A DNA stretch of 43,119 nt from a virus. Below the pieces are notes generated by a model. The model made no database searches. It was not told where the DNA came from and was given only the letters and a program-made list of their open reading frames with translations. Both the position numbers and the translations under genes were made by a program. Shown here piece after piece: positions 2,066 to 43,119 of the stretch (position 1 is its first letter; every line of letters begins with the position of its first letter). The DNA is taken from positions 1 through 43,119 of the IMG/VR virus record IMGVR_UViG_3300032287_004025; one strand, given 5' to 3'.

Positions 2066-2070
2066 TTCAT

Positions 2071-2667: not shown

Positions 2668-2674
2668 TAATTAA

Positions 2675-4112: not shown

Positions 4113-4789
4113 TGATTAATATTGTATACACAAATAGTAAATGTCAAGATGTTTTTAATATTTTTAAATCACAGCACGACACATACTCAAAATTACCACT
4201 TTTTGTAATATCCGATAATGGTGGGGATTTTACTTATAGAAACGAAGACCCATATTACAAACATTGGTTAGATGCATTAAAATTGGTGAATGATGATTTT
4301 TTCATTTACAACCAAGAGGATTTCATTCTTTATGATTCAGTAAATCATGATATTTTAAATAGATTAGAAAACTTTTTAATAGAAAATCCTGAATATTCAT
4401 TTGTTAGATTAATTAAAAGTGGTCAAAATTTATCAAGAGAAGAATTGGTTGAAAACATATACCCGATTGGTGACGATTCTTTTCCACTTTATTCGATGCA
4501 GGCAACAATTTGGAATAAAAATAAATTTATCGAACTGTATGAAAATACTAAACAAGAAAAGTGGTTTGAGTCTCAATCATATGAAGATGCGTGTAAAAAA
4601 TTAAATATAAGGGGCGTTTATTATTACAATGGTGAACCAAAAAGAGGTGGTCATCATGACTCATCAATTTATCCTTATATCGCAACCGCGGTTGTAAAAG
4701 GTAAATGGAATTTAAGTGAGTATAAAAATGAATTATTACCTCTACTTAACGAACATAATATAGTTATAGAAAATAGAGGTATATTTTAA
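4112..4789 (+). CDS. Putative GT-A-type glycosyltransferase
   Basis: The 225-residue product begins with a short strand (MINIVYTN) and has an N-terminal alpha/beta region followed by 'FFIYNQEDFILYD' (QEDF at 68-71). That resembles the 'QED' motif found near the DxD in small phage and capsule transferases. There is no signal peptide or membrane segment. It overlaps the previous gene by one base (TAATG). It could not be placed in a named family; the operon context is the main support. Confidence 0.45.
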   Translation: MINIVYTNSKCQDVFNIFKSQHDTYSKLPLFVISDNGGDFTYRNEDPYYKHWLDALKLVNDDFFIYNQEDFILYDSVNHDILNRLENFLIENPEYSFVRLIKSGQNLSREELVENIYPIGDDSFPLYSMQATIWNKNKFIELYENTKQEKWFESQSYEDACKKLNIRGVYYYNGEPKRGGHHDSSIYPYIATAVVKGKWNLSEYKNELLPLLNEHNIVIENRGIF

Positions 4790-4790
4790 T

Positions 4791-5402
4791 ATGTTACTTG
4801 ATTTAATTAGTCTATCAAAAAAATACAACATGAATATTAGTGGCATTATTCACATAGGTGCCCATTTCGGTGAAGAACATTCAACTTATAAGAGTTTAGG
4901 TGTAAACAATATTGTTTATTTTGAACCGGTTAAAAAAACATTTGATGTTTTAAATGAAAGAGTAACGGATGCAAAATTATATAATTACGCTTTAGGTAAT
5001 GAAAATAAAATGATTGAAATGTATATTGAAGATAACGATACATATGGGTGCTCTTCAATACTTCAACCAAGTTCAAATTATGCAAACATCGCTTTTAGTC
5101 CAAATGAATTAGTTGAAATGAAACGATTAGATGATTTTAATTTTAATGGTTTTAATCTATTAAATATAGATGTCCAAGGTTACGAATATGAAGTTTTAAA
5201 AGGTGCTGAAAAAACATTAGAAAATGTAGATTTTATTTTATGTGAAATAAATCGAGATACCCCAAATAAACAACTAGATTATATCGGCTCAAAAACGATA
5301 GATAAAATAATAGAACTATTAACACCTTACGGTTTCAAATTGAGTGAAGAAAATTGGGCTGGAATATCGTGGGGTGATGGTTTTTTTGTAAAACAAAAAT
5401 GA
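4791..5402 (+). CDS. FkbM-family methyltransferase, second copy
   Basis: The 203-residue product has motif I as GIIHIGAHFGEE (18-29), FEPV (44-47) and LLNIDVQGYEYEVLKGAE, the best-known FkbM signature. It is about 40 residues shorter than the FkbM protein starting at 2675 and lacks its N-terminal extension. The two are clearly divergent in sequence, so they are unlikely to be a recent duplication and probably modify different positions. It starts one base after the previous stop and overlaps the next start by four bases. Confidence 0.85.
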   Translation: MLLDLISLSKKYNMNISGIIHIGAHFGEEHSTYKSLGVNNIVYFEPVKKTFDVLNERVTDAKLYNYALGNENKMIEMYIEDNDTYGCSSILQPSSNYANIAFSPNELVEMKRLDDFNFNGFNLLNIDVQGYEYEVLKGAEKTLENVDFILCEINRDTPNKQLDYIGSKTIDKIIELLTPYGFKLSEENWAGISWGDGFFVKQK

Positions 5403-6076
5403 TTGTAGGTAAAGGGTTAATATCATCCGGGTTTCAGTCATCAAAAAATGACTATACCAATTACATCATATTTGCATCAGGAGTTTCGAATTCAAAAGAA
5501 ACGAATGATAGTGAATATAATCGTGAAAAAGAACTGATATTAAAAACCATAAATGAAAACAAACAATTAAAAATAATTTATTTTAGTAGTGTTTTAGTTG
5601 AAACAACCAAAAATAAGTACTATCAAAACAAATTAGATATTGAAAATCTAATCAAAACTAATTCAGATAACTATATTATTTTTAGAATTCCTCAGGTTAT
5701 TGGATACAATGGAAATCCTAAAAATTTGTTCAATTTTATAAAAAATTCTATAGTAAACGAAACCGAAATAACAATCGATAAAAACATAGAAAGGTCTCTA
5801 TTAGATATTGATTATTTGGTAGATATTGTTGATTACTGTAAAGATAAAGTATCTTGCGAGATACTGACAATTTCAGGTGTAAAAAAAATAAAAGTATTTA
5901 CTCTATGTAATCTAATTGGTAAATTTTTAAATAAAAAACCTATTTTAAAAATAGTCGATGATGTCGAATATAAAAATTGGTTTACCAAAAACTCTAAGAT
6001 TATTAATCAATCAATAATCAATATCAATAAACTAACTTATTATGAAACTCTTCTAAAAAAATATATTTCTCAATGA
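5399..6076 (+). CDS. Short NAD(P)-dependent epimerase/reductase-like protein (extended SDR)
   Basis: The 225-residue product looks like a compact extended short-chain dehydrogenase. It has a glycine-rich start (VGKGLISSGF), a 'YFSSVLV' strand where the catalytic Ser normally lies (61-67), a YxxxK pair at Y74/K78, and 'FRIPQVIGYNG', equivalent to the 'R..nvyGp' strand of sugar epimerases. At 225 residues it is much shorter than the usual ~310, mainly because the dinucleotide-binding half is reduced. It may act as a sugar 4-reductase or epimerase on an operon intermediate; the substrate is unknown. Confidence 0.55.
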   Translation: MIVGKGLISSGFQSSKNDYTNYIIFASGVSNSKETNDSEYNREKELILKTINENKQLKIIYFSSVLVETTKNKYYQNKLDIENLIKTNSDNYIIFRIPQVIGYNGNPKNLFNFIKNSIVNETEITIDKNIERSLLDIDYLVDIVDYCKDKVSCEILTISGVKKIKVFTLCNLIGKFLNKKPILKIVDDVEYKNWFTKNSKIINQSIININKLTYYETLLKKYISQ

Positions 6077-6840
6077 AAGTTATAACTTTAACATTCGCCT
6101 ATGATATAAGCAAATTATTTGAAATTGGTAGATTTTGGGCAAAAGATGTTTATATCGATAAAGATTTTATATCTGATTATTCTGCCGCATCTTATGCTAC
6201 ATTTTTACATACAAATCCGGATTTACAACTTCATTTATATACCGATGACATTGATTTAATTAGAGAAAAATTAAACCAATACAATGTAAATTTAAAAAAT
6301 GTTGTTTATCATGATTATTCTGAAAAATTAAAATCATATGAAGGTAAATTAAAATATAGTTTTGATATTTTACATGATTTTATTATTGAGCAGAGAAGTA
6401 ATAGTGAATACACGGTTAAAATTGATTGTGATTTATCATTTCGTAACAAGATACCAATGATGGATAATACAAGTAAAGATATTTTAGTTTGGAAATATGA
6501 AAGAATGTTATTTAACGGTGACCCTAGAATGGGTGAAATTAAATCATCAACGTTAAGTGTTGGTAACATTAATTATAAAATATTTAATGTTGGCTTATTG
6601 GGGATACCACCAACATTTGAAATCGATGAATTGGATGATGTGTATCGAAAAATGTCCGACGTTAATATTATGGATGTTTCAGATATAAAAGTAAATTCTT
6701 GGCATTGTGCTGAACAAACATCTAAAAATTGGATTTTTCATAAATACAATTACAATGTCATTGAATCATATAACTTTGTTAATCATCATTTTGAAACCAA
6801 AAAAAAATGTATCGATGACGCCAAATATTTATTAAAATGA
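6073..6840 (+). CDS. Putative GT-A glycosyltransferase
   Basis: The 255-residue soluble protein has a plausible DxD motif in VKIDCDLSF (IDCD at 117-120), preceded by an alpha/beta segment with 'LQLHLYTDD', as in transferases related to GT8 or GT32. Near the C-terminus is 'SWHCAEQTSKNW', where a conserved His/Glu pair could help bind the diphosphate. It overlaps both neighbours by four bases. The fold is inferred from layout and the DxD, not from a clear family match. Confidence 0.5.
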   Translation: MKVITLTFAYDISKLFEIGRFWAKDVYIDKDFISDYSAASYATFLHTNPDLQLHLYTDDIDLIREKLNQYNVNLKNVVYHDYSEKLKSYEGKLKYSFDILHDFIIEQRSNSEYTVKIDCDLSFRNKIPMMDNTSKDILVWKYERMLFNGDPRMGEIKSSTLSVGNINYKIFNVGLLGIPPTFEIDELDDVYRKMSDVNIMDVSDIKVNSWHCAEQTSKNWIFHKYNYNVIESYNFVNHHFETKKKCIDDAKYLLK

Positions 6841-7655
6841 TTACAATAATAACTACAGGTAGAGATGATGATTACGGACATGGATTTTTAGATAGACTGT
6901 ATTCGTCAATAAAAAATAATATAGAAATACTGCACAGTTACAGTATCGAATACGAATATATTATTTGTGAATGGAATCCGGTAAAAGAACCCCTTTTGTA
7001 CCACGAAAAATTTAAAGAATTATTTGAAAAATATAATTTAAGAGAAGTAATAATTACAAATAGTGTTGTCGAAGAAGAACGGTTAAATCATAATATTTTT
7101 TATGAATATTTTGCAAAAAACGTCGGTGTTAGAAACGCCAAATATGAAAATATATTAATAATTAATTCAGATATTGTTATTCCTTCAGAATCCTTTTCAA
7201 TTATCATCGATAACATTAAAAATGGTTTAGAAAAAGATAAATTTTATAGATTAGAGTTCAGAGAACAAATAGATAATGATTTTAATTTTATTAAGATAGA
7301 ATCTGTTTATCACCCGTCTAATCCTGATTCAGTAATATGTGGATATTGTTCTGGTGATTTTTTACTAACAAATAAAAATAGCTTTGTTGAATTTGGGATG
7401 GGATATGACGAAACAAATTTTGCTCATAGAACCATTTCACAAACAGGTATGGATGGTGAAATATTATGGAATATGTACAATAATGGTATGAGAATAAAAT
7501 TAATTCCGACTAAGTATATGCACATAAATCACGGTAAACCTAACCCATATGATAATTACTATAATGATAAAGGATATATAAATAAGAGTAATTGGGGGTT
7601 TATTGATTATGAACATGATGAAGTTTCAAATAAATTAATGATTATAAAAAAATGA
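6837..7655 (+). CDS. Glycosyltransferase family 2-like protein
   Basis: The 272-residue product starts MITIITTGRDDDYG, continues with 'FLDRLYSSI', and has the family 2 pattern 'GVRNAKYENILIINSDIVIP' (NSD at 110-112 in place of the usual DxD). A later 'GMDGEILWNMYNNGM' could be the ED-type catalytic-base segment. Soluble, with no C-terminal membrane anchor, so cytosolic. It overlaps both neighbours by four bases. The reduced DxD (NSD) is seen in some active family 2 enzymes, so inactivity cannot be concluded. Confidence 0.65.
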   Translation: MITIITTGRDDDYGHGFLDRLYSSIKNNIEILHSYSIEYEYIICEWNPVKEPLLYHEKFKELFEKYNLREVIITNSVVEEERLNHNIFYEYFAKNVGVRNAKYENILIINSDIVIPSESFSIIIDNIKNGLEKDKFYRLEFREQIDNDFNFIKIESVYHPSNPDSVICGYCSGDFLLTNKNSFVEFGMGYDETNFAHRTISQTGMDGEILWNMYNNGMRIKLIPTKYMHINHGKPNPYDNYYNDKGYINKSNWGFIDYEHDEVSNKLMIIKK

Positions 7656-8581
7656 AAAAATTTATAGTAACAACAACAATTAATAAACCTACCGTAGCGA
7701 CCTTAAAATTTGCGGAAATATCAGACAGAGATAATTGGACTTTTGTAATTGTAGGAGACACCAAAACCCCACATGATGAATATGAGAAATTGGTTTCATC
7801 GCATAATAATGTTGTTTATTTATCACCAATCGAACAAGAGAAGTTGTATCCCGAAATCAGTAAATTAATTGGTTGGGGTACAATACAAAGAAGAAACATT
7901 GGGTTCATCTATTCATACCACAACGGCGCAGACATTATGTCGACCATAGATGATGACAACATACCATATGATAATTGGGGTCAAAATAATGTGGGTAAGG
8001 AAATTGAAGTTGACCTTTATGAACCACAATTAAATGTATTTGACCCATTGTCAATTACCCGAGATAACTATCTGTGGCATCGAGGTTACCCAATCGAATA
8101 CTTACAAAAAAGATTTCAAGTTGAGTACAAGGGTAAAATAAAAAGAAAAGTATTGGTTCAAGCGGATTTGTGGGATGGTGACCCTGATATTGATGCATTA
8201 GCAAGACTAACATATAAACCAATCGTTAAATATTCTGACGTGGCTCACCCATATTGTTCGAATAAAATATCACCATTTAATTCTCAAAATACGTTTCTTG
8301 ATAGGTCTGTGATTCCCGTTTATTCGGTTTTACCATTTATTGGTAGAATGGATGATATTTGGGGGGCTTACATACTCCAACACTATTTTCCCAATTCTGT
8401 GATTTATTCACCCGCCAGTGTTTATCAAGACAGAAATTCTCAGGATTTAATTACCAACTTAGAAAAAGAAATCATTGGGTATAGAGATACTTTAAACCTG
8501 ATTAATAATTTAGAGAATTTTGAAAAAATAATACCAAAAGAGACACTTAATTTTTATAATTTATACAAAAAACAATTTTAA
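7652..8581 (+). CDS. STELLO/DUF288-like putative glycosyltransferase
   Basis: The 309-residue product has 'IQRRNIGFIYSYHNGADIM' followed by a DDDN motif (100-103). This matches the 'KNIGYLYAI.HGA..I...DDDN' pattern of the DUF288/STELLO group, known best from plants and other eukaryotes, where STELLO proteins affect cellulose synthase. Only the transferase-like domain is present, with no membrane anchor. It is translationally coupled on both sides (four-base overlap with the previous gene, stop directly abutting the next ATG). The reaction is unknown. Confidence 0.55.
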   Translation: MKKFIVTTTINKPTVATLKFAEISDRDNWTFVIVGDTKTPHDEYEKLVSSHNNVVYLSPIEQEKLYPEISKLIGWGTIQRRNIGFIYSYHNGADIMSTIDDDNIPYDNWGQNNVGKEIEVDLYEPQLNVFDPLSITRDNYLWHRGYPIEYLQKRFQVEYKGKIKRKVLVQADLWDGDPDIDALARLTYKPIVKYSDVAHPYCSNKISPFNSQNTFLDRSVIPVYSVLPFIGRMDDIWGAYILQHYFPNSVIYSPASVYQDRNSQDLITNLEKEIIGYRDTLNLINNLENFEKIIPKETLNFYNLYKKQF

Positions 8582-9583
8582 ATGAAAAAAGTATTAGTAC
8601 TAGGGGGTGGAGGTTTTATTGGTGGTCACCTTGCAAAAAGATTAAAGAATGAAGGAAACTATGTTAGAGTAGTTGACATAAAAAGACACGAATACTTTGA
8701 CGAGAAGGACTTTTGTGATGAATTCATAGTTGGAGACCTAAGAGACCCTAAAGTTGTCTCAGAATCAATTGATGAGGGTATGGATGAAGTTTATCAACTT
8801 GCTGCTGACATGGGTGGTGCTGGGTATATTTTTACCGGTGATAATGACGCGAATGTGATGCACAACTCAGCGTTAATTAATTTAAATGTTGTCCATGAGT
8901 GTGCTAAGAAAAATGTAAAGAAAGTTTTTTACTCATCATCGGCATGTATGTACCCCGAACACAACCAACTTGACCCTGATAACCCAAATTGTGAAGAATC
9001 TTCAGCGTATCCCGCGAATCCCGATTCGGAATATGGGTGGGAAAAATTGTTCTCTGAAAGGTTGTTTTTAGCGTTTAATAGGAACTATGGATTGGATGTC
9101 CGTATTGGTAGATTCCACAATATCTTTGGTCCTTATGGTACTTGGAAAGGTGGTAAGGAGAAAGCGCCAGCGGCAATGTGTAGGAAAGTTTCCGAAATGT
9201 TGGATGGTGGTGAGATTGAAGTATGGGGTGATGGTCAACAAACTCGTTCATTTTTATATGTTGACGAATGTGTTGAAGCAGTATTAAGACTTATGAATCA
9301 AAATGAATTTTTAGGTCCTGTTAATATTGGTTCGGAGGAAAAAATTACTATAAATGATTTGGCCCAAATGGCGATAGATATCTCAGGAAAAGAGATTTAT
9401 ATAAGAAATATAGGTGGGGAAGAATTTAAAGAAAAGTATGGTTACAAATGTCCTGTCGGTGTACGTGGACGAAACTCAGATAACAAACTTTATTTGGAAA
9501 AAATAGGATGGGTTGTTAATGAACCATTATACAATGGTATGGTAAAAACCTACGAATGGATTCAAACAATGGTTGAGAAATAA
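8582..9583 (+). CDS. GDP-mannose 3,5-epimerase-like NAD-dependent epimerase
   Basis: The 333-residue extended SDR has the Rossmann motif GGGGFIGG (8-15) and the features of GDP-mannose 3,5-epimerase: ADMGGAGYI (75-83), SSACMYPE (119-126), YGWEK (catalytic Y151 and K155), FHNIFGPYGTWKGG and KEKAPAA. C122 and K194 sit where the plant enzyme has its acid/base Cys and Lys. The product would be GDP-L-galactose or GDP-L-gulose. Last gene of the operon, followed directly by a terminator hairpin. The sugar may be used by the upstream transferases. Confidence 0.85.
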   Translation: MKKVLVLGGGGFIGGHLAKRLKNEGNYVRVVDIKRHEYFDEKDFCDEFIVGDLRDPKVVSESIDEGMDEVYQLAADMGGAGYIFTGDNDANVMHNSALINLNVVHECAKKNVKKVFYSSSACMYPEHNQLDPDNPNCEESSAYPANPDSEYGWEKLFSERLFLAFNRNYGLDVRIGRFHNIFGPYGTWKGGKEKAPAAMCRKVSEMLDGGEIEVWGDGQQTRSFLYVDECVEAVLRLMNQNEFLGPVNIGSEEKITINDLAQMAIDISGKEIYIRNIGGEEFKEKYGYKCPVGVRGRNSDNKLYLEKIGWVVNEPLYNGMVKTYEWIQTMVEK

Positions 9584-9886: not shown

Positions 9887-9887
9887 A

Positions 9888-18606: not shown

Positions 18607-18735
18607 TTCTAGTTAACTTTTTACTGATAACAGAAGAAATGTCGTTGTCTTCTGTATTATTTATTTCCGAATTGTCCGAACCATAGTTTTCCAACGAGTC
18701 CACCTCTGGTTGGAATTCTTCTAATTTTTTTTTTC
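18572..18735 (-). other. Probable -1 frameshift extension of the membrane protein gene
   Basis: The upstream ORF stops at 18721 right after a run of ten A's on the coding strand (reading GAA AAA AAA AAT TAG). In the -1 frame translation continues for about 53 codons (KKLEEFQPEVDSLENYG...), staying acidic, and ends at 18572 inside the start of the amidase-like gene. Without it, 18607-18720 would be an unusual 114-base non-coding gap. It may be programmed frameshifting, transcript slippage on the A run, or a homopolymer error in the assembly. Confidence 0.6.
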
Positions 18736-30194: not shown

Positions 30195-32345
30195 TTAAAA
30201 ATCTATTTTGACTGCAAACACTTGAGTTCCGCTTCTTTTTACAGGATTTGCGGTTTTACCAATAGCAAGAACTTCTTTATTCTCATTCAATAAAGCTACC
30301 TCGGTAATTCTCTTATCTTGTCCTGTGGTATATGTAGGGTTCTGTGTCACATTAAATTGACTAGCCGGTAAGTTGACCAAGAAATTCATTTTTTCAATGT
30401 CCATGGCTCTAACTAATTTAATACTACCAGGGAATGGTTGTTCGTCACCAAACTGTGGTGATGTCGATGGTTGGTTTGGAATATCTCCGATATATGATTC
30501 TAAGTCAAATATTGTAGTATCATTATCGTACATGTCAAATGTCACTTGGAAAGAATAATCAACCAAATTTGATGGATTAATTATGTTACCCACAGTGTGA
30601 TTAGGTATGTACGATGTCATATCTAATAACTTCCATAGATTTGGTTCAGGTAAATCTCCGTAATTGGTTACTTGAATTAATAATTGAAATTGATTTGCAA
30701 TGAATCCATTACTAAAATTACAAGTACTACCTGTTACCATGTTACCAAAATATCCGTTGGCGAACTTAACATAAAGTTGACACGGTGTTGTAAAATAGGT
30801 ACTACCTGTTGTTGTTTCAAATTTGGTGTAGTAGTTACACGGTAACCCATTCATTTGGGTATCTCCCGTATAATTTAACATATAAGTTAACCATATTGTC
30901 TGTTCTGTCGAACCACTATAAAACGATTGAGACGCCGGTAAATCACTTGGTAATAAATTAATCTTAGGTGACGGTAAAGTATATTTTCTATTTGATTTAT
31001 AGTCCATTACTGCAACCAATTCTTGGTCGTCGATTACGATTGTTTTATTGTTTACAAATACTTTACCAACCTTATTACCAAATTCGTCTAATAGATATCT
31101 AAACTTCACCTTTTGGTATGCGTTTTTCTTTGAACTAACAAAATAATCAACGGTATCCATGGTAAGTAACGCACCAATGGTTGTACCTGTATTTCTATGA
31201 TATTGTATAAATGGAATATAAACCTCAAAGTATTCTAAATCAGTAATTGAGTTACCAAGAGAGTCTTCTAATAACGCTTGTGATTCCACGTTATTTGTAC
31301 TCAAATAATCATCGTATTTATAAAACCTTTCGGGGTCATTTTTTAAATCACCTAATTCAGAATAGTGAATCACCGCGATACATCTTTGTTCTTCGGGCGT
31401 CACATTAATTAATTCGTTATATGAATTACGATACGCCGTAGGATTATCAATTGTTGTACCCGTACTTGTTGTAAAAGTTTGACCACTTGATGTAGTATAA
31501 CCTAAGAATTGTTTGGTTGAAACATGTTTATTTGAAGTAAATCCAGTTATGTTTTCATCTAAACCGTTAACATCAAACCCTATTGGTTTCATCCCCCAAA
31601 CCACATTCATTGTCCATGAATTCAATTGTTGTGATGGGTCGATTTCCGCTGCTTGACAATTTGGATTGTATGTAACAGATACGGGATATTCATTTTCACA
31701 TGAATTACATACTACTTGAGCGGGACCTGTACATCCTGAAAAATTTGGTGTATTTCTATCTAAATAAAGTGTGTTACCAGTAACACCTGTGATTTTATAA
31801 ACTAAACTATTTGTTTCACCTGTAATGACAGGGTGATTTGGGTCGTTACCACAAAAAGTACCAAAAACTATTGTAATAAATTCACAATCATTAAAACTTG
31901 AACCTGTCAATACTGTGACACTATTGTCGCCCGTCATTGCAGATAATGATATTTGTTGTGTTTCACACTCGACAGTGGTTCCTTCACAAACACTACCATC
32001 ATATTCAATATATTCAGTAACAAATCCAGCGGGACCCATTACGTTTCTTAAAGTGTCTGTTGTTGATGATTGAATTGGAATACCGTAAACAGTAGAACCT
32101 GTGTTACTACTATCCAATTTGTATGGATATTTTATACCACCCTCTCTATCAAATGGTGCAAATACCATTTGGAATGGTTGTGAATCTAATCCTGTGAAAT
32201 TGTCAAAAGGTGATGTGTAATCAAATTCAGAATCCCCAATTTGGAAATAGGCAATATTAAAACTACCCTTGGCGATAGAATTTCTACCCTTTTGAGTTAT
32301 TCTAACTGATAAAAATTCCGAATTGTTATTACTTAAAAAGCTCAT
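30195..32345 (-). CDS. Putative virion structural protein (716 aa)
   Basis: No enzyme motif. The N-terminus 'SVRITQKGRNSIAKGSFNIA' and 'YFQIGDSEFDYTSPF' resembles the opening of large baseplate or tail proteins from Bacteroidota myoviruses that I recall as '...TxxGRxxxAxGxFN...DxExDY'. The body is beta-rich, with Thr/Gly/Asn-rich stretches and several Cys (FGTFCGNDP, VVCNSCENEYP). It shows no Pro/Ser/Thr linker, unlike the genes beside it. It could be a tail, baseplate or fibre protein. The motif memory needs a search. Confidence 0.55.
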   Translation of the reverse strand: MSFLSNNNSEFLSVRITQKGRNSIAKGSFNIAYFQIGDSEFDYTSPFDNFTGLDSQPFQMVFAPFDREGGIKYPYKLDSSNTGSTVYGIPIQSSTTDTLRNVMGPAGFVTEYIEYDGSVCEGTTVECETQQISLSAMTGDNSVTVLTGSSFNDCEFITIVFGTFCGNDPNHPVITGETNSLVYKITGVTGNTLYLDRNTPNFSGCTGPAQVVCNSCENEYPVSVTYNPNCQAAEIDPSQQLNSWTMNVVWGMKPIGFDVNGLDENITGFTSNKHVSTKQFLGYTTSSGQTFTTSTGTTIDNPTAYRNSYNELINVTPEEQRCIAVIHYSELGDLKNDPERFYKYDDYLSTNNVESQALLEDSLGNSITDLEYFEVYIPFIQYHRNTGTTIGALLTMDTVDYFVSSKKNAYQKVKFRYLLDEFGNKVGKVFVNNKTIVIDDQELVAVMDYKSNRKYTLPSPKINLLPSDLPASQSFYSGSTEQTIWLTYMLNYTGDTQMNGLPCNYYTKFETTTGSTYFTTPCQLYVKFANGYFGNMVTGSTCNFSNGFIANQFQLLIQVTNYGDLPEPNLWKLLDMTSYIPNHTVGNIINPSNLVDYSFQVTFDMYDNDTTIFDLESYIGDIPNQPSTSPQFGDEQPFPGSIKLVRAMDIEKMNFLVNLPASQFNVTQNPTYTTGQDKRITEVALLNENKEVLAIGKTANPVKRSGTQVFAVKIDF

Positions 32346-32380: not shown

Positions 32381-34672
32381 TTAAGGACAACTACCATAAG
32401 TTATTGTGTAATCAGCAATCCCTGGTGGTGGTATTGATGCGTCCGCCCATTGAACCGAGGTTATCGTACCACAAACACACCCACTATCACCTTGTACTAT
32501 GTTTAAAGTTGTTGGTGAACCATTACAATCCGTATAGAAAACTCTTATAGTTGAAGAACCATTTGGGTTACCGGGTGTAATATTATTTACACCGTTACAT
32601 TCACACGGTGGAGTTGAACTTGGGGTGGGTGTAACCGTTCTTGTTGGTGTAACAGAACTTGTTGGTGTAACTGATGAGGTTATTGAAGGTGTTATAGATG
32701 GGGTTACGGAACTTGTGATTGATGGAGTTATAGTTGGGGTTACACTCGGAGATGCTCCCATTGTTGAAGATGGTGTAACAGAATTAGTAGGTGTGGCTGT
32801 AATAGATGGAGTCACCGATGGAGTTGTACCCATTGTTGAAGATGGTGTTAACGAAGGTGTAATTGACGGTGTAATTGTAATAGACGGTGTGACAGAAGGA
32901 GTTACGCTCGGAGTTGGGGTTGGGCTACCCGGAACACTTTCGCAACATTCATCTAAATTTATTCTAAACACTTGTTCACAACATCCCTCACAGACTAATC
33001 GTACATACATTTCCATCAATGTTGCTGTTATACCTGTAATTTCACAAACATCACCTGTGGTCATTCCTGTACATGATGTAACTCCTGTTATGTTAGTAGA
33101 AGTCAATCCCGTATAAACTGAACAATTAGTATAATTTGAACCTGAATTAAATGAAATTTTTATTGCTTTTGGTGTTACCGTATCATTTACACAAGGACTT
33201 CCACTTGTTGATGATGGTGTTGGGGTAATTGTAACACTTGGGGTTATAGATGGGGTGATTGTAACTGATGGAGTAACAGATGGTGTAACGCTCGGTGTAA
33301 CACTTGGGGTTGTGTTTGATGTTTGTGATGGAGTTGGGGTTAGTGAAGATGTTGGTGTAACGCTCGGTGTAACACTTGGAGTCGTATTTGATGTTTGTGA
33401 CGGGGTAACAGTTGGGGTGATGGATGGGGTGATTGTTACAGATGGTGTAACTGATGGTGTAACACTTGGGGTAACTGATGAACTAACCGAAGGTGTAACA
33501 GTTGGAGTTGGGCTCGTTGTAACTGATGGTGTAACACTTGGGGTTGTATTTGATGTAACCGAAGGTGTAACAGTTGGAGTTGGGCTCGTTGTAACTGATG
33601 GTGTAACACTTGGGGTAACTGATGAACTAACCGAAGGTGTTGTCGAATTTGTTGGTGTAACACTTGGGGTAGTGGATGGTGTGACCGAAGGTGTTGTCGA
33701 ATTTGTTGGTGTAACACTTGGGGTAGTGGATGGTGTGACACTTGGAGTTGGGCTAGCTGATATTGAGTCACAATTTTGATTGTCCTCACATCCACCATTC
33801 GCATAAACAAAAATATCTGATGGGTCACTGAATGTAATTGTTTGGTTATCAAAACACACACACTGATATACAGTACCCAATGGTGGTATAACACCTGAGG
33901 TTTGAAATTGGTTATAACAATCGGTGTATGAATATGTAACGGTATTACCGTTTAGACTTACAATTTGTTTACATACACAATCAGTACACAAAACTTGGGG
34001 TGATGGGGTAGGTGTGGGTGTTACTGAACTAGTGACTGACGGTGTAACTGATGGTGTTACTGATGGAGTAACCGAACTAGTAGGTGTTACTGATGGTGTT
34101 CTTGACGGTGTAACCGATGGGGTTTCAGATGGGGTTGGAGTGGGTGACGGAGTTTCTGTTGGGGTTGGGGTTTCAGATGGGGTTGGTGATGGTGATGGAC
34201 ATACTGGGCATTCTCCATATTCACAACTTGGAGCTTCAACCCATGTATTAGTATCATTTACAACACTTGTTGGGATAAAATCATTCAGTACTGCAATCCA
34301 ACAATCGGTACCGTCATTGTAAACATTCCCTAAATTATATTGAAATCCACTTAAGGTTTCATAAACAGTCCCACCTTGTTCACAACATTTATTAAACTTA
34401 TTTGTGGCGGTACACTGTGTACCATCATTCGAGAACGAACTATTGTTTGCGGTATATATAGTATTATTCTTGTAATAATATAGTGTTGGTGGGTAAGAAT
34501 TAGAATCGACACATATTTCGTGACCACCTGTTAAAAAAGATTGTGTTTGTGGATTACCACTACAATCGTTATAATCAACAAATACACGTGAATTCCATAA
34601 CGGATTTGTGTTACCCGTTGCGTTACCCGTGTCTAATGAACTTATGTTTAATGTTACTAAAAGACAGGCCAT
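32381..34672 (-). CDS. Mucin-like virion protein with Cys modules and TPSV linkers (763 aa)
   Basis: Four Cys-containing globular modules are separated by three long Pro/Ser/Thr-rich linkers built of TPSV, TPSxTP and TPTP units. Modules share the pattern Y-(T/N)-D-C-x(N/G) near their start ([10 protein letters not shown] at 31-40; [20 protein letters not shown]), with further CxC and CC pairs. No signal peptide is evident. It is likely displayed on the virion as a flexible, possibly glycosylated fibre or decoration. It is separated by only three bases from the next small gene. Confidence 0.7.
33630..33739. repeat. 54-bp tandem duplication in a Pro/Ser/Thr linker
   Basis: The stretch 33630-33685 is repeated exactly at 33684-33739 (period 54 bp, 18 codons). 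Most of the surrounding linker has varied synonymous codons, so this is a recent duplication. It codes for TPSV-type units of the 763-residue protein. Confidence 0.9.
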
Positions 34673-34675
34673 TTA

Positions 34676-35026
34676 TTAAGTTATTTGAACAACGTTAACT
34701 CCAAAGGAACATGGATTATAACAATCACTACATCTTAAATCGACAAGCGCTAATTGATAACCACCTTGTAATTTGGTTGCAGGTTGTGGTACTGAGCTTA
34801 TGTGTCCGTCACAGTGTTCTACAAATACAAACATTTGTGGAATTGTATTTAATAGATTTATATTAAATGTATATCCTGAGGATAATGAAATTAAACTTAC
34901 GTTACCATTGAGATATCCAGCATCGTCAATATTGTGAGTTAACCCCGTGTAGATATAATACCCACTACAAGGAGTTTGACCAGAAAAATTTGATATTGTT
35001 ATTTGATACTGTTTTAACGATGGCAT
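34676..35026 (-). CDS. Small Cys-containing structural-type protein (116 aa)
   Basis: Beta-rich throughout (QYQITISNFSG, NVSLISLSSGYTFNINLL, FVFVEHCDGHISSV) with Cys at several positions (TPCSGY, DLRCSDCYNPC). It has no Pro/Ser/Thr linker, but its Cys pattern and position among the linker proteins suggest a capping or accessory virion protein. No family recognised. It ends three bases before the 763-residue gene. Confidence 0.5.
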   Translation of the reverse strand: MPSLKQYQITISNFSGQTPCSGYYIYTGLTHNIDDAGYLNGNVSLISLSSGYTFNINLLNTIPQMFVFVEHCDGHISSVPQPATKLQGGYQLALVDLRCSDCYNPCSFGVNVVQIT

Positions 35027-35068
35027 ATTTCATAAATATAAAAAATCATATTTTATAATAAAGTATTT

Positions 35069-35821
35069 TTAACAAGGACCCCCAATTGTACATACATAAT
35101 TTACACCACTACCCGTTGATTCAAGAATATCATTTAGTGCACTTGAATGTGTGAAAAACCCTATAAACGGATTTGTTAATGATGTGTTAGTATATATTGC
35201 GGTGGATACTCCCGTCAATTCACTAACACTACAATTAGTATAAACTGTTGTTACTGTTGAACCAACACATGTACACGGACCACTACATGTCGATGAACAC
35301 TGTTGTATTGTCCAAGATAGATATTGACAAGATGGTGTTGGGGTTGGGGTTAAAGTTCTTGTTGGTGTTGGGGTTGGGGTTAAAGTTCTTGTTGGTGTTG
35401 GGGTTGGTGTCGGAGTTGTTGTAGACGTAACTGACGGTGTTATTGTTGGGGTGACGCTTGGTGAGGGTGGAGGTGGTGTTGCACTCGGTGTAACAGATGG
35501 GGTCACACTTGGTGTTGGACTTGGACTAACACAAACTGTTTGTACATCGAAACACATTGTGTCATAACATGGGAATGCTTTACTATCGTGAGTATAGATA
35601 TTTTTAATAATATATCTTCCCGTAGTTTCATCAGTCATTTTAATCCAATATTGGGTATCAAAAGACAAACCACTAATGGTTACATTATTTACGGTTAATC
35701 CCGTGTTTAATAAAGTAAAAGATGAATCAACTGTCTCAGGATAAGGTGATTCACCGGATTTATATCGAATGGAAAAACTACCATCCGAAACAATATTATA
35801 TATTTTTACATTTAATCCCAT
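35069..35821 (-). CDS. FN3-like domain plus Pro/Thr linker and Cys module (250 aa)
   Basis: The first ~90 residues resemble a fibronectin type III sandwich ('NNVTISGLSFDTQYWIKMTD' is the typical F/G strand region). Then comes a [21 protein letters not shown] linker (about 103-166), and a C-terminal Cys module with YTNC (TTVYTNCSVSEL), like the YxDC modules of the neighbours. It probably belongs to the same surface complex. It ends 42 bases before the next gene. Confidence 0.6.
   Translation of the reverse strand: MGLNVKIYNIVSDGSFSIRYKSGESPYPETVDSSFTLLNTGLTVNNVTISGLSFDTQYWIKMTDETTGRYIIKNIYTHDSKAFPCYDTMCFDVQTVCVSPSPTPSVTPSVTPSATPPPPSPSVTPTITPSVTSTTTPTPTPTPTRTLTPTPTPTRTLTPTPTPSCQYLSWTIQQCSSTCSGPCTCVGSTVTTVYTNCSVSELTGVSTAIYTNTSLTNPFIGFFTHSSALNDILESTGSGVNYVCTIGGPC
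35341..35400. repeat. Exact 30-bp tandem repeat in a TPTPTRTLTP linker
   Basis: Two identical copies of a 30-base unit (35341-35370 and 35371-35400) code for ten residues of the linker. A third copy begins (first seven bases) and then diverges. It shows recent copy-number change. Confidence 0.9.
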
Positions 35822-35823
35822 TA

Positions 35824-37665
35824 TTATGTCGTTACATCAGAAGTTATATAAATTATTAATGATGTTGTACTGTTAGGTATCAAATAAGTATCATTTATTG
35901 AACCCGTACCACAACTTGATTCGGTGTTTGTTTGTACTGTCACACCATTTCTAACTATAGAATATCCAACAATACTACATCCGTAACCTAACGCGGTACA
36001 TCCTGAGGTTATACCTAAGGCATCCATGCTTAAATCAATTAAATCACCAACATGTGCGGTTGTTGTACCGCTATATGTACTAACAGGGAATGGTGTGTTC
36101 CATGTATAAAAAGTAGTTCCATTTTTTTGAATATTACCAAAAGTTCTTGAACATGAATTCAATTTTTGATGTTGGTAAATCAAGGATATTGTAATTGAAC
36201 TTGGGGTTGGTGATGGTGTAATAGATATCGATGGTGTTGGTGTGATAGATGGTGTAACAGAAGTAGTTGGTGTAACCGATTGTGTAACGTTTGGTAAAGA
36301 CGAACTTGGTGTTGGTGTGATAGATGGTGTTCTTGTGGGTGTTGATGAACGTGTGGGTGTAATTGATGGTGTTATGGTTGGTGTTTTTGTTGGAGTTGGG
36401 GTCTTGGTTACGGTTGGTGTTGGTGTTTTTGATGGTGTAGGAGATGGTGATGGTTGAGGTATCGGAGTTGCAACAAGATAATCAACCGAATTAGTACATG
36501 TACCAACACTTTGTATTGTTCCACCTGTTATCGAGTAACAAACCGTCGTAGTATAACCTGTTAACAACTGAGCATTTGTTATTCCTGTTGCGATTGTAAC
36601 AATTGTTCCACCTGTTGTGACCCCTGAAATATTATATGAACCTGCTTGATTTAAAAAATAGATTTCTTGTAGTGTAAATGTATATTGTGAACAACCAGTT
36701 GGTATTGATGAGGGAGTTGGCGTCACCGTCATGGTTGGAGTGAGTGAAGGTGTTACCGAAGTTGTAGGTGTATTGGTTGGTGTTGTACTTGGAGTTACTG
36801 AACTTGTTGGTGTAACAGTTGGTGTGACCGAAGGTGTTGAACCCATGGTTGATGACGGTGTAGGTGTAATAGAAGGTGTTACAGAATTTGTTGGAGTAAT
36901 ACTTGGTGTAATTGATGGTGTAACAGAACTTGTTCGAGTAATACTCGGTGTAACAGATGGTGTTCTACTTGATGTTGGGGTTGGCGTTGGGGTAACACTT
37001 GGACAAATAGATGTACATGGTGTACCAACATATACATAAATACCATTAGTTGGTAAAGAATAATCGACACAAACACCTAAATATAAAGTTGTTCCAGATT
37101 GATAAATTCCACAACAATCATAATAATCCCAACTTGTACTATCTGTTAAACCACTATAACATATTTTTGGTGTTGTTGATGGAGTTGGGGTTGGAGTTGA
37201 GGTGGGTGTTGGACTTGGCCCCGCTTGACAAGTGGGACAATCAAGATAGAATAACCCATTATCTTTTAACGTTTGAACGGTAAATGCTGGAATTGTATTT
37301 CCTGTACCCGCGGTATAAACAGGTGTAAATGTGTAACATTCTTCAGAATAGGATATTGTTGCACCTGTCGTATAAAAATATTCGTAGATTTCTGAGTTGG
37401 GGAAAGAAAATTGTTGGTCAGCACCCATCGGGTCACAATTATCAAAATCCCAAGTATTGTATGTACTATTACATTGACTACATCCTGTATATCCTGAAAA
37501 AATAACAGTACCTGTTGGCCCTGCACCAACGTTACCTGTGGATTCCCAACATTGGTAATCCGCAAAAATGGTGTGTCCCGATAAAACAACACTATCGTTA
37601 ACTATAAAGTCTTGATAAGTCGAAGGATTTGAACAAAGTTGGAAGGTTATTATTTGAACTGCCAT
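35824..37665 (-). CDS. Mucin-like virion protein with Cys modules (613 aa)
   Basis: The N-terminal ~150 residues are globular, with Cys pairs and a 'TWDFDNC' segment. They are followed by short TPTP linkers around a module with 'SWDYYDCCGIYQ', then a long TPSVTPSI linker, another module (about 322-395, CSQYTFTLQEIYFLN...) and a further Pro/Ser/Thr linker. The C-terminus is a beta-rich domain (FYTWNTPFPVSTYSGTT...). No signal peptide. It shares the YxDC-type pattern with neighbours. A virion fibre or decoration is likely. Two bases separate it from the next gene. Confidence 0.7.
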   Translation of the reverse strand: MAVQIITFQLCSNPSTYQDFIVNDSVVLSGHTIFADYQCWESTGNVGAGPTGTVIFSGYTGCSQCNSTYNTWDFDNCDPMGADQQFSFPNSEIYEYFYTTGATISYSEECYTFTPVYTAGTGNTIPAFTVQTLKDNGLFYLDCPTCQAGPSPTPTSTPTPTPSTTPKICYSGLTDSTSWDYYDCCGIYQSGTTLYLGVCVDYSLPTNGIYVYVGTPCTSICPSVTPTPTPTSSRTPSVTPSITRTSSVTPSITPSITPTNSVTPSITPTPSSTMGSTPSVTPTVTPTSSVTPSTTPTNTPTTSVTPSLTPTMTVTPTPSSIPTGCSQYTFTLQEIYFLNQAGSYNISGVTTGGTIVTIATGITNAQLLTGYTTTVCYSITGGTIQSVGTCTNSVDYLVATPIPQPSPSPTPSKTPTPTVTKTPTPTKTPTITPSITPTRSSTPTRTPSITPTPSSSLPNVTQSVTPTTSVTPSITPTPSISITPSPTPSSITISLIYQHQKLNSCSRTFGNIQKNGTTFYTWNTPFPVSTYSGTTTAHVGDLIDLSMDALGITSGCTALGYGCSIVGYSIVRNGVTVQTNTESSCGTGSINDTYLIPNSTTSLIIYITSDVTT

Positions 37666-37681
37666 TTATTAATTTTCTATC

Positions 37682-37689
37682 TATAAATA
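37682..37689 (-). promoter_or_regulatory. Candidate class B element before the 613-residue gene
   Basis: Minus-strand TATTTATA, 16 bases before the ATG at 37665, in the context GAGTATTTATAGATAG. A near copy (AAGTATTTATCA) lies before the 55-residue gene (start 12711). Confidence 0.25.
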
Positions 37690-37710
37690 CTCAAACCATT
37701 ATTTTATTTT

Positions 37711-40700
37711 TTAACATGGTGTACCACATCCAGTACAATTACCACATGAACCCTGACCTATACTTGTGTATGTTGAACCAAAGACAGGTGGTACAAATGC
37801 TCCCCTATTAATTACATAGAAACCTGTAACTCTTGCAATACATCTATTGAAGATACCACCATTCATAAACGTTTCTGAGGTGAATAGACCGTCACAACAT
37901 TGGTAATATAGGAACAATCCTGTGTAGTATAACGGGTCTCTCGCGTCTACTGTTATTTCGTAACATTGACAATCGCCACATGCACCATTACTTGTCACCT
38001 CACCACCCCAAATTCCAATAACAGAAGGTACGGAACACGAACACAGAGTTAGAAAACCATATTCCCAGTTAACTGTGTCAGTAATTTGTTGACTTGTGTT
38101 AGTACAACAATCGGTGTAATCCACAGCATTACCAGCGTTTAATTGTGTAATTGTATACTCATTACAAATACATGGTGTTACTGAAGGTGTTGGTGTTGGT
38201 GTTGGTGATGGTGAAACTCCCGGTGCGGGTGGTGTTTCTGATGGTGTAATTGATGGTGTTATACTTGGTGTTACTGAAGGTGTTGGCGTCACTGACGGTG
38301 TCCTTGATGGTGTAACAGAAGGTGTAACGGAACTACTTGGTGTTACAGAAGGAGTTCTCGATGGAGTAACTGATGGTGTAACGGAACTACTTGGTGTAAC
38401 ACTTGGTGTTCTTGAAGGAGTAACACTTGGTGTAACTGAACTCGTTGGTGTAACACTAGCAGTTATTGATGGTGTTACTGAAGGTGTTGGTGGTGGAGAT
38501 GCTCCAGCTGTTCTACTTGGTGTAACTGATGCAGTTCTTGATGGTGTTAAAGAGCTTGTTGGTGTTACCGATGGTGTTCTTGATGGTGTAACGGACGGTG
38601 TTACCGAAGGAGTCGGTGTTCTACTTGGTGTAACTGATGGTGTTATACTTGGTGTTACTGAAGGAGTTGGTGTAACGGATGCCGTTGGTGTTGGTGTTGG
38701 TGATGGACATGGATTATGAATTTGACAATCTGCACAAAGATTATATGGTCCATACGCATTTACACCAGCACCTGTGCCAGGTCCACCATATGATAGAACT
38801 TCATAACAACATCCAATATATGAAATATATTTTCCTACTAATATGTTTGGATTAAATGCGGGGTCACAACCAAAATTTATTTCATATATTCCATTCGCTC
38901 CACAACATGGGTCACAATTTCTAAGTTGGTATCTATGGTTTGCACATGGGTAAGTAGTCAGACATGTTGCACAATCATTAACACTAAATTCATTAGGTGG
39001 GTAATAACCGTGAACACCCGTGAAATTTGGTGAACTATAAGTTTGACTATATCCTTCTACATAATAACAACATCCATCAATTACTATAGTATAATTTTGT
39101 TGTATTCCCACTTGAACATAAGTTAAGTCAGTTGTGATACTCAAGAATGGTATAGTACCTTGGTCATATCCACTATTACAACAAGGTAATAAATACACAT
39201 AACCGTACTGTGGTGATGGTGATGGCGTAATAGACGAAGTTACTGAAGGAGTTCTCGATGGGGTAATCGATGGAGTTACTGAACTAGTTGGTGTTAGAGA
39301 TGGTGTTGTTGATGGAGTCACAGAACTAGAAGGAGTTACCGATGGAGTAACAGAAGGTGTCACACTTGATGTTGGTGTCACAGAAGGTGTAACGCTCCTT
39401 GTTGGGTCTGGTGTTCTTGATGGTGTAGGAGTAACAGAAGGTGTCACACTTGATGTTGGTGTCACAGAAGGTGTAACGCTCCTTGTTGGGTCTGGTGTTC
39501 TTGATGGTGTAACGGAACTACTTGGTGTTACAGAAGGAGTAACCGATGGAGTAACTGATGGTGTAACTGATGGTGTAACAGATGATGTTGCGGTTACTGA
39601 TGGTGTTGTACTTGGTGTAATTGAAGGTGTTACAGAACTACTTGGAGTTACAGATGGTGTTCTTGAAGGGGTAACTGATGGGGTTACAGAACTACTTGGA
39701 GTTACAGATGGTGTTGTACTTGGTGTGATAGATGCGGTAACACTTGATGTTGGTGTTAACGACGGAGTGATAGAAGGTGTCACTGATGGTGTTACTGATG
39801 GAGTTACGGATGGGGTAACAGAAGGTGTTCTTGACGGAGTTGCAGTTACTGAACTTGTTGGGGTTGGTGATGGTGTTGGACAGGTAAATACCGCGTTACA
39901 ACTTGCACAATCGGTGAATTTTGAACTACCCAATGTATAGAAAGGATATGCACCATTTGCAATTAAAACAAATGATTGATAACATGTCCCTCCAAATGCA
40001 TAAATTCCAGGGTTACCAGTTATGTAGTTAAAATCACCCTGTGTCATGTTGATGTTGTAAATATTGTTATCACAACAACTCTGCGTTTGTACCGACACAA
40101 TTACAGTTGATGGTGTTACTGTAGGTGTAACTGATGGAGTCACAGAACTACTTGGGGTTACCGAAGGTGTTACAGAAGGTGTAACGCTCGATGTTGGTGT
40201 TACTGTAGGTGTAACTGATGGAGTCACAGAACTTGTAGGGGTTACGGATGATGTAACAGAAGGTGTAACGCTCGATGTTGGTGTCACAGAAGGTGTAACG
40301 CTCCGTGTTGGGTCTGGTGTTCTTGATGGTGTAGGAGTAACAGAAGGTGTAACGCTCGATGTTGGTGTCACAGAAGGTGTCACTGATGGTGTCACACTTG
40401 AAGTAACAGATGGAGTTACTGAACTCGTAACCGAAGGTGTTACCGATGGTGTTACAGAACTTGTAACTGATGGTGTTACTGAACTAGTTGGTGTTACAGA
40501 TGATGTTGGGTCTGGTGTTCTTGACGGAGTAACGGAACTACTTGGTGTTACTGATGGTGTTACTGAACTTGTAACCGAAGGTGTTACAGAACTAGTTGGG
40601 GTGACTGAAGGTGTTAGTGATGGGGTAACTGATGCGGTTCTACTTGGTGTCACTGATGGTGTTACAGATGATGTTGGTTCTGGTGTTCTTGATGGTGTAA

Positions 40701-43119
40701 CAGATGATGTTGGTGTCACACTTGGTGTTACGGATGGTGTAACTGAACTTGTTGGTGTTACTGATGGTGTAACTGAAGGGGTTATACTTGGTGTTACTGA
40801 ACTAGTTGGTGTAACACTTGGTGTTCTTGAAGGAGTGATTGATGGTGTCACAGATGAAGTTGCAGTTACTGAAGGTGTTGTACTTGGTGTGATAGAAGCC
40901 GTCACAGATGGTGTTACCGAACTACTTGGAGTTACTGATGGTGTTGTACTTGGTGTTATTGAAGAAGTTACCGACGGAGTTACAGAACTACTTGGAGTTA
41001 CCGAAGGTGTTCTCGATGGAGTAACAGAAGGTGTTACAGAAGATGTTGGTGTAACAGAAGGTGTTACAGAAGGGGTCACCGACGGTGTAACACTCGATGT
41101 TGCAGTCACTGAAGGGGTCGTACTTGGTGTTACGGATGGTGTTACAGAACTACTTGGTGTAACACTTGGTGTTCTTGAAGGGGTAACCGAAGGTGTTACT
41201 GAACTTGTTGGGGTTACCGAAGCTGTAACAGAAGGAGTCACGGATGGTGTTACCGAACTACTTGGGGTAACCGAACTAGTCACACTCGGTGTTATTGATG
41301 GAGTAACCGAACTACTTGGTGTTACTGATGGTGTTGTACTTGGTGTAAGTGATGGGGTAACACTTGAAGTTACTGTTGGAGTAACACTTGGGGTAACTGA
41401 GCTCGTAACACTCGGAGTCACTGATGAGGTTGGTGTTACAGATGGTGTTCTACTTGGGGTTACAGATGGTGTAACAGATGATGTCGCAGTTACAGAAGGA
41501 GTAACCGATGGAGTAACTGATGGTGTAACGGAACTACTTGGTGTAACCGAAGGAGTAACAGAAGGTGTTACAGAAGGAGTAACAGATGATGTTGCAGTTA
41601 CTGAAGGGGTTACTGAAGGTGTAACTGAAGGTGTTACCGAACTTGTTGTAGTTACCGAAGGGGTTCTTGACGGGGTGACACTCGGTGTAACACTAGAAGT
41701 AGGTGTAACAGATGGAGTAACGGATGGGGTTACTGAACTTGTTACGGATGGTGTTACCGAACTAGTAACTGAAGGGGTAACTGATGAAGTCACACTTGGA
41801 GTTACGGATGATGTTGGTGTAACACTCGGTGTTCTTGAAGGAGTTACCGATGGTGTCACAGATGATGTTGCAGTCACCGACGGTGTTACAGATGGTGTTA
41901 CGGATGGAGTAACCGAACTAGTAGGTGTAACGGATGGAGTTACTGATGGTGTAAGTGATGGTGTAACGGAACTAGTAGATGTTACAGAAGGGGTTACTGA
42001 ACTCGTAACACTCGGAGTAACTGAAGACGTTGGTGTTACCGAAGGTGTTACCGAAGGTGTAACCGATGGGGTTACTGAAGAAGTTGGTGTTACTGACGGT
42101 GTTACCGAAGGAGTTACAGAACTTGTTACCGAAGGTGTAACGGAAGGTGTTAAAGATGGTGTAACTGACGGTGTTAAAGATGGTGTTACGGAACTACTTG
42201 GTGTAACACTTGGTGTTCTTGAAGGAGTAACACTTGGTGTAACTGAACTTGTTGGCGTAACTGAACTTGTAACTGACGGGGTTATTGAAGAAGTAACACT
42301 TGGAGTTACGGAACTAGTAACAGATGGAGTGACACTTGGTGTTATAGATGGTGTAACAGAACTTGTGGGTGTTACTGATGGTGTAAGTGATGGAGTAACA
42401 GAAGGTGTTACTGACGATGTCGCGGTTACGGATGGGGTAACAGATGGTGTAAGTGATGGTGTAACGGAACTAGTAACAGACGGAGTAACTGACGGTGTTA
42501 CCGAACTAGTAACAGAAGGTGTAACTGACGACGTTGGGGTTACACTTGGTGTTCTCGATGGAGTAACTGATGGAGTCACTGAAGATGTTGCAGTTACCGA
42601 CGGTGTCACAGATGGTGTTACCGAACTTGTTGGAGTAACAGATGGTGTAACGGATGGTGTAACAGAACTAGTAACTGATGGAGTAACCGAACTTGTTACT
42701 GAAGGAGTTACACTTGGCGTAATCGATGGAGTTACTGAAGATGTTGGAGTTACAGAAGGTGTTGTACTTGGTGTAATTGATGGGGTTACAGATGACGTTG
42801 CGGTTACGGATGGGGTAACAGAAGGTGTTACTGAAGGTGTTACACTTGATGTTACTGATGGAGTAACACTTGGTGTTCTTGATGGTGTTATAGATGGTGT
42901 AACTGAACTTGTCGGTGTAACTGAACTTGTAACAGATGGTGTGACAGATGGTGTTACCGAACTAGTTGCAGTAACCGAAGGAGTAACCGAAGGGGTAACC
43001 GACGGAGTAACGGAACTTGTCGGTGTTACCGATGGTGTTAATGACGGAGTAACAGAAGGTGTTACGGAACTAGTTGGGGTTACAGAAGGTGTTCTTGACG
43101 GAGTTATACTTGGGGTTAC
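37711..43119 (-). CDS. Giant mucin-like virion protein (5' end outside window)
   Basis: The frame stays open to the right edge, so at least 1,802 residues are present and the true start lies beyond it. The visible N-terminal >1,000 residues are almost only Thr, Pro, Ser and Val with Arg/Leu/Ile/Ala substitutions (units such as [30 protein letters not shown]). Then come Cys-rich modules (40104-39872, ~39212-38706, 38172-37711) separated by the same linkers. They carry CC pairs and a '[17 protein letters not shown]'-type ending. The C-terminus is a Cys module. A long, stiff extended fibre is expected. Function is inferred. Confidence 0.75.
38172..38706. repeat. Degenerate Pro/Ser/Thr repeat linker
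   Basis: Mixed [12 protein letters not shown] units between the C-terminal Cys module and the next module of the giant gene. It has irregular 12-bp periodicity with varied third codon bases. Confidence 0.8.
39212..39872. repeat. Degenerate Pro/Ser/Thr repeat linker with SRTPDPT units
   Basis: A linker between two Cys modules of the giant gene. It contains [13 protein letters not shown]-type units that also occur near 40310 and 40505, and the exact 84-bp duplication described separately. Confidence 0.8.
39344..39511. repeat. Exact 84-bp tandem duplication
   Basis: The 84 bases 39344-39427 recur exactly at 39428-39511 (28 codons). The match ends on both sides at the unit boundary. Most of the linker around it has strongly varied synonymous codons, so this is a recent expansion. 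Confidence 0.93.
40104..43119. repeat. Long Pro/Ser/Thr repeat region, running off the window
   Basis: Over 1,000 codons with Thr-Pro-Ser-Val type units and no globular insert. Third codon bases vary freely, so protein sequence, not DNA sequence, is conserved from unit to unit. No stop or recognisable start in the visible part. Confidence 0.9.

Follow-up and report, generated by a model that had tools for sequence, protein, structure and literature searches.

Classical tail fibres are rigid trimers. In the Flavobacterium phage vB_FspM_immuto (MW353175), the gene order is gp25 and gp6, further on a tail fibre and two tail spikes, and further on again the primase. Moraphages are large aquatic phages of Bacteroidota, mostly with predicted Flavobacteriia hosts, which stem mostly from freshwater metagenomes and have genomes of 200-307 kb, a T4-like core and several core glycosyltransferases (PMC12619734). 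Here, we analyzed a linear DNA fragment of 43,119 bp, which is the entire IMG/VR record IMGVR_UViG_3300032287_004025 and is named the window hereafter. One end of it is occupied by a row of genes encoding proteins that are very rich in Pro, Ser and Thr (PST proteins). All proteins of this study are known from DNA alone and hence are predictions. Judged by gp6 and primase, immuto is the closest annotated cultured relative. Our analyses make it probable that the PST gene cluster encodes virion adhesins composed of an anchor, a tether and a grip, most likely located on the baseplate or tail.

The PST genes and their position beside baseplate genes

The four PST genes are neighbours at the right end of the window, where they span positions 32381-43119, and all are on the minus strand. 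Pro, Ser and Thr together account for 64%, 46%, 45% and 51% of their products, which have at least 1,802, 613, 250 and 763 residues, respectively, and which contain 1,939 of these residues in total. For the 38 other open reading frames (ORFs) of the window, the mean share is 14% (standard deviation 3%, maximum 24%). The PST proteins contain linkers, which are TPSV-type runs of at least 1,012 (running off the contig), 238, 191, 112, 101, 81, 82, 196, 120 and 28 residues, and the modules between them comprise 42-153 residues with 2-14 Cys each.

Since the window is a fragment, the largest of the four genes is incomplete: only the 3' part of this giant gene is present (37711..43119), encoding 1,802 residues and open at the contig end, and the N-terminal anchor lies beyond the contig. 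The encoded part consists of the T-P-S-V linker of at least 1,012 residues (40084..43119), a 61-residue module with 4 Cys (39901..40083), the 238-residue linker, a 153-residue double module with 14 Cys (38728..39186), the 191-residue linker and a 147-residue C-terminal double module, also with 14 Cys (37714..38154). The second gene (35824..37665) encodes the 613-residue protein, which has a 144-residue N-terminal module, linkers of 28, 112 and 101 residues and modules of 42, 69 and 117 residues; genes related to it bear a beta-propeller or additional Cys modules. The 250-residue protein (35069..35821) is made up of a conserved 90-residue N-terminal module, an 81-residue linker and a 79-residue Cys module. 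The 763-residue protein (32381..34672) has a 151-residue N-terminal module, linkers of 82, 196 and 120 residues and Cys modules of 67, 78 and 69 residues. A fifth gene of the row, located between the latter two on the same strand (34676..35026), encodes a 116-residue protein without a linker, and the cluster ends with a gene, also on the minus strand, for a conserved 716-residue protein of structural type (30195..32345).

Codons for TPSV read antisense are stop-free, and for this reason we rejected the plus-strand ORF of 1,018 codons at 40064-43117 as a gene; automated annotation may call a gene there. A "GTG" start inside the giant gene was likewise set aside as a by-product of the stop-free repeats.

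With the 716-residue protein as bait, 20 related loci were found in IMG/VR, several of which were extended to complete giants. These complete orthologs have 5,472 (G001, on a 288-kb contig), 2,940 (G004), 4,688 (G005), 2,737 (G006) and 4,989 (G009) residues. Every one of them starts with a conserved domain of about 60 residues, which begins with MALIKINTGNFDGE and is 82-90% identical to that of the G001 giant, followed by one linker of ~2,000-4,700 residues and then by Cys modules or more linker. The G001 giant contains 4,045 consecutive residues without Cys, Trp or Tyr. The 147-residue C-terminal double module is kept in every ortholog with a complete C-terminus except that of G005, where it is found in the next ORF; the 153-residue double module is kept in G001, G005 and G006, and the 61-residue module is related to modules of G009. 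The 116-residue protein has an ortholog in G001, and by eye its sequence is similar to N-terminal modules found in PST proteins of G007 and G009. An earlier note on this DNA had described at least four genes combining TPSV-type linkers with Cys modules, and linkers of more than 1,000 residues. Both statements are borne out, on a scale larger than was stated.

In G001, the gene row reads gp25-like, gp6, five ORFs, a conserved 1,414-residue protein, the giant, proteins of 854, 282, 116, 973 and 716 residues, RuvC and primase, all on one strand and with gaps of at most 129 bp. The assignment of gp6, a baseplate wedge protein, is based on a PHROG match with E = 1.7e-22. Since the flanks (gp25/gp6 and primase) are the same as those of the fibre and spike genes of immuto, the PST cluster fills the tail-fibre slot. 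As is expected for receptor-binding modules, its genes are placed with baseplate genes. In addition, the N-terminus of the 716-residue protein is weakly related (E = 0.0026) to a 219-residue protein of immuto, the gene of which lies a short way ahead of the one annotated as tail fibre.

Turnover of the giant linkers

The earlier note had named the collapse or expansion of repeats during assembly as a finding that would refute it. We consider such an artefact unlikely and rejected it on three grounds. First, duplicated 127-mers are absent from five of the six giant genes (those of the window, G001, G005, G006 and G009) and make up just 0.3% in the sixth. Second, the 16,419-bp giant gene is identical in G001, G002 and G003, records that come from different metagenomes, evidently represent one phage population type and are not fully independent. 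Third, codons for the same residue agree at 36-45% between adjacent repeat units versus 37-43% for random pairs, and the 144 TPSV units of the window gene are written in 64 DNA spellings. As this agreement is about the random level, the peptide has been kept while synonymous sites became nearly saturated. Single assemblies can nevertheless lose a piece, which makes individual linker lengths slightly uncertain: G011 is the same phage as G001, and the sole difference is that its giant linker has lost 253 bp, which breaks the frame (L054/L011); this is either an assembly collapse or a real variant.

Exact 33-mers recur at 4-11% of the positions versus at most 0.15% after synonymous shuffling, and this excess indicates that segments are still being duplicated. 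The type of repeat also changes between close relatives. The upstream 1,414-residue protein of G004 is 96.5% identical to that of G001, but the G001 linker contains 748 TPTN and 3 TPSV units, and the G004 linker 348 TPSV units and no TPTN. Similarly, L176, whose 1,414-residue protein is 88% identical, uses TPSV, and L190 (86%) uses TPTI/TPTV. Thus, the linkers change far faster than the neighbouring genes and are swapped wholesale, whereas the T-P-x-x tetrad, the low charge and the great length persist.

The tRNA cluster of G001 (23 genes, L033:573-5473) includes tRNAs for the most frequent or second most frequent codons of the linkers, namely Thr(UGU), Pro(UGG), Ser(UGA) and Val(UAC). A special supply of Thr and Pro by phage tRNAs was discarded as unspecific, because the 23 tRNAs cover most amino acids.

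The earlier note had also regarded bacterial and phage proteins with so much Thr, Pro and Ser as uncommon, which is partly borne out. A degenerate (TP[ST]V)x3 pattern found at least 120 stretches in IMG/VR, and each of the 80 loci listed has ORFs with linkers of this kind, most of them shorter than 500 residues. With at least 80 such stretches in IMG/VR, PST linkers cannot be called very rare in viromes of aquatic origin. Linkers of more than 1,000 residues, however, were present among the matches listed only in the present family or in pure linker fragments of the same type. In 84,980 bacterial and archaeal genomes, a stricter T-P-[ST]-V pattern gave 118 stretches, with a longest linker of 290 residues and a median of 54; as the patterns differ and the loci are short stretches, this allows only a rough comparison with the viral lengths.

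Anchors, modules and possible functions

Clustering of the modules from nine contigs revealed that modules are swapped, as shared N-terminal modules are paired with differing C-terminal ones. For instance, the "MGLNVKIYNI" module of the 250-residue protein is joined to a Cys module in G000 and to a beta-propeller in G005 and G006. This type of propeller is also present in the 854-residue gene product of G001, and its profile matches the propeller of a surface-layer protein (PDB 1l0q, E = 5e-22). The 60-residue domain at the start of the giants was found at 96 places in IMG/VR, of which 80 loci were kept. It is common to the giants and many shorter proteins with varied C-termini, and would attach them to the virion. 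Shorter proteins with this anchor end in GLEYA/PA14 (E = 2.9e-20 and 1.7e-14), laminin-G_3 (2.3e-13), BspA-like DUF285 repeats (1e-80 and 6e-240) or an F5/8 type C domain (3e-5, under the Pfam cut-off); in one paralog of the anchor, PKD is matched weakly. GLEYA/PA14, laminin-G, BspA-like and F5/8C are mostly carbohydrate- or surface-binding folds. Neither the deposited phages nor, in a pattern-limited scan, the 84,980 bacterial and archaeal genomes contained relatives of the anchor.

Two further proteins belong to this setting. An 803-residue protein (L222-L241) consists of the anchor and ten DUF285 (BspA-like) repeats, and its length is identical in all nine records inspected. At 61770-64304 of G001 (L036:1770-4304), a PST linker is followed by a seven-repeat DUF5122 beta-propeller (E = 6e-82); the product is probably a tail or neck protein.

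AlphaFold2 (AF2) predicted beta-rich C-terminal modules for the last 496 residues of the giant protein of the window. The predicted local distance difference test (pLDDT) values were ~73-91 in the better parts, which are the second half of the first double module (76-91) and most of the last one (~73-88). The linkers in this region were mostly below 50, lacked secondary structure and are thus predicted to be disordered. Structure prediction, one of the checks proposed in the earlier note, therefore gave beta-rich folds, but Foldseek searches with the modelled C-terminal modules yielded nothing significant, neither in PDB (best E = 0.18; pilins, Fn3-type and Vip3A) nor in a viral library (best E = 0.047). 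A PDB sequence search with the C-terminal module and the anchor gave no match. For the 1,414-residue protein, which might be a baseplate protein resembling P2 gpI, PDB matches were confined to the PST tail of some rows and one insignificant match. Matches to phrog_15511 appear to reflect largely linker composition, and an NCBIfam BimA match of the 250-residue protein (5e-5; cut-off 600 bits) was attributed to proline-rich low complexity. The note had also proposed to look for the same modules in other phages; they were found in the IMG/VR relatives, but searches with the 716- and 1,414-residue proteins, the C-terminus of the giant, the anchor and two modules detected no homolog among 50,697 deposited phage records.

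In the arrangement that we favour, the short N-terminal domain would attach the respective protein to the virion, with the baseplate or tail as the most likely site. The low-charge, disordered Thr/Pro/Ser/Val linker, of 81 to ~4,700 residues, would be a flexible tether, which may carry sugars, and the Cys-stabilized beta-modules, or the lectin-type or propeller domains of the relatives, would bind to the host, either at its surface or at its coat of polysaccharide. In this way, the virus could grip its host from a distance. By general polymer reasoning, a tether of 4,600 residues would be longer than 1 micrometre when stretched and would form a coil of roughly 50-150 nm, which is similar to virion dimensions. 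The long flexible virion fibres suggested in the earlier note thus gain good support from gene position, architecture and lectin-type paralogs.

Several points weigh against this arrangement. The linkers look disordered, and a rigid, usually trimeric shaft of beta-structure is not found in the 496 residues modelled. AF2 prediction for a protein composed of the anchor and the F5/8C domain gave a mean pLDDT of 40. Neither Pfam, NCBIfam and PDB sequences nor Foldseek gave a significant match for the Cys modules of the window, and hence their putative binding role is assigned by analogy. Moreover, the lectin-bearing paralog of G001 is located ~50 kb from the tail cluster, and the presence of the PST proteins in virions is deduced from the genes.

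Tentatively, the data may be taken one step further, to an undescribed class of host-recognition device: a tail-anchored protein of 3,000-5,500 residues that acts as a disordered, possibly phage-glycosylated, mucin-type line with exchangeable grips. Internal duplication would exchange its linker as a whole and leave the TPxx tetrad in place, making reach and surface chemistry quickly retunable. If the PST genes encode what their architecture implies, a widespread group of large aquatic phages uses flexible tethers of thousands of residues, as opposed to the usual picture of rigid trimeric fibres and spikes, and one would have to expect a different reach when such phages adsorb through capsules and slime. 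The tethers would also be a natural acceptor for the many glycosyltransferases of jumbo phages, whose targets are mostly unknown. The exchange of TPSV for TPTN beside a nearly identical gene offers a clean system for studying disordered-protein evolution where mainly composition matters.

Among the alternatives, we regard as unlikely, though the best of them, a mucin-like coat on head or tail, in which brushes heavily O-glycosylated by phage glycosyltransferases would shield the particle or stick to environmental polysaccharide, instead of serving as tethers to a host receptor. Thr and Ser make up 47-54% of the giant proteins, and a cluster of thirteen sugar genes is present at the other end of the window (1..9583, plus strand). 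It encodes a GT1-like fragment, a UDP-GlcNAc 2-epimerase, a GT2, a WavE-like protein, two FkbM methyltransferases and an NAD-dependent sugar epimerase, besides several ORFs without assignment. It could possibly supply or attach glycans, of virion or DNA, and is a candidate partner only. Of 17 relatives, 16 have GT2 genes and 10 have genes for FkbM methyltransferases, which is circumstantial support for a possible mucin-like O-glycosylation of the tethers. However, the UDP-GlcNAc 2-epimerase is present in just 1 of 11 relatives, and glycosyltransferases are core genes of moraphages (four orthogroups; PMC12619734), which makes their co-occurrence with PST genes unspecific. The linkers are almost devoid of N-glycan sequons and of the Bacteroidota D[ST]x O-glycosylation motif, which argues against a coat and makes the general glycosylation system of the host an unlikely modifier. 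Finally, gene position favours the tail; the surface layer proposed in the earlier note has no specific support, as synteny points to tail or baseplate. Adjacent genes for a glutaredoxin and a thioredoxin (9593-10193, minus strand) could serve nucleotide reduction or the disulfide handling of Cys modules.

We consider it quite improbable that the PST proteins are non-structural and that the infected cell releases or displays them, be it as decoys, as a matrix surrounding lysing cells or in a similar role. Their Cys modules do resemble extracellular proteins in composition, but the genes are co-directional with baseplate genes in the slot of the immuto tail fibre, and by eye the listed N-termini contain no obvious signal peptide. 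Least credible of all are mostly selfish or slippage-driven linker expansions of little function, possibly inflated by assembly: the excess of duplicated 33-mers, the range in length from 2,737 to 5,472 residues and the one assembly with a frame-breaking deletion would fit, but the TPxx peptide is kept despite nearly saturated synonymous codons, the frame is intact over 8-16 kb in five distinct phages, the gene is identical in three records and every giant keeps a tether of ~2,000 residues or more.

Comparison with known phages and surface proteins

The virion adhesins proposed here are encoded by a large freshwater bacterial virus with putative hosts among the Flavobacteriales. Its TerL is 28-29% identical to those of the Flavobacterium phage immuto and the Microcystis phage Mel-JY01, which are distant relatives. 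Core genes shared with moraphages are gp25, gp6, primase, glutaredoxin and the sigma factor, a likeness in gene content. The words threonine and mucin are absent from the main text of the moraphage paper (PMC12619734), and no precedent for PST-rich or mucin-like phage fibres was found in the open-access literature. The window is AT-rich (G+C ~31%, up to 46% in the repeat region) and encodes, besides the sigma factor, a T4-like primase (phrog_47, E = 7e-39), a RuvC-like resolvase, a ClpP-type protein and an SbcC/SbcD-like pair (Pfam E = 9e-4 for SbcC and 1e-11 for the phosphoesterase). It also encodes a D12-class N6-adenine DNA methyltransferase (11567-12457, minus strand; Pfam E = 9e-21). A 381-residue protein (18721-19866, minus strand) with a membrane-like N-terminal region and a long EEPQVIEEPQ-type repeat tail is a second low-complexity protein, whose composition is unlike that of the PST proteins.

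Like mucins and PST-rich bacterial surface linkers, the window proteins join tandem Thr/Pro/Ser repeats to Cys-rich modules, and they have the long PST-rich tandem-repeat region that is a defining trait of mucins. In contrast to mucins, Pfam recognized none of the mucin Cys domains (VWD, C8, TIL and CK) in them, so that the term mucin-like, used in the earlier note, applies to composition and not to these domains. For mycobacteriophages, PMC12619734 cites Freeman et al. 2023 on virion glycans, which are carried by the C-termini of capsid and tail-tube proteins. Here, a tailed phage with glycosylated virion proteins is a hypothetical parallel, in which thousands of Thr and Ser residues would be the candidate acceptor.

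Modular binding domains displayed on virions, including those of Bacteroidota phages, are a feature that the proposed adhesins would share with T4 Hoc and with BACON/PKD/Ig adhesins. T4 Hoc is not known to have kilo-residue disordered tethers. BACON/PKD/Ig adhesins occur in gut Bacteroidota phages (PMC13370021); the window proteins have no significant Pfam match to the Ig, BACON or PKD families, nor to Fn3. The closest counterpart is the tail fibre and spike module of immuto, which is located in the same slot after gp25/gp6 and before the primase and presumably serves host recognition. Nevertheless, the immuto proteins are ordinary fibres and spikes, and the annotated fibre, spike and neighbour proteins have PST shares of 21-33% and 0-2 Cys.

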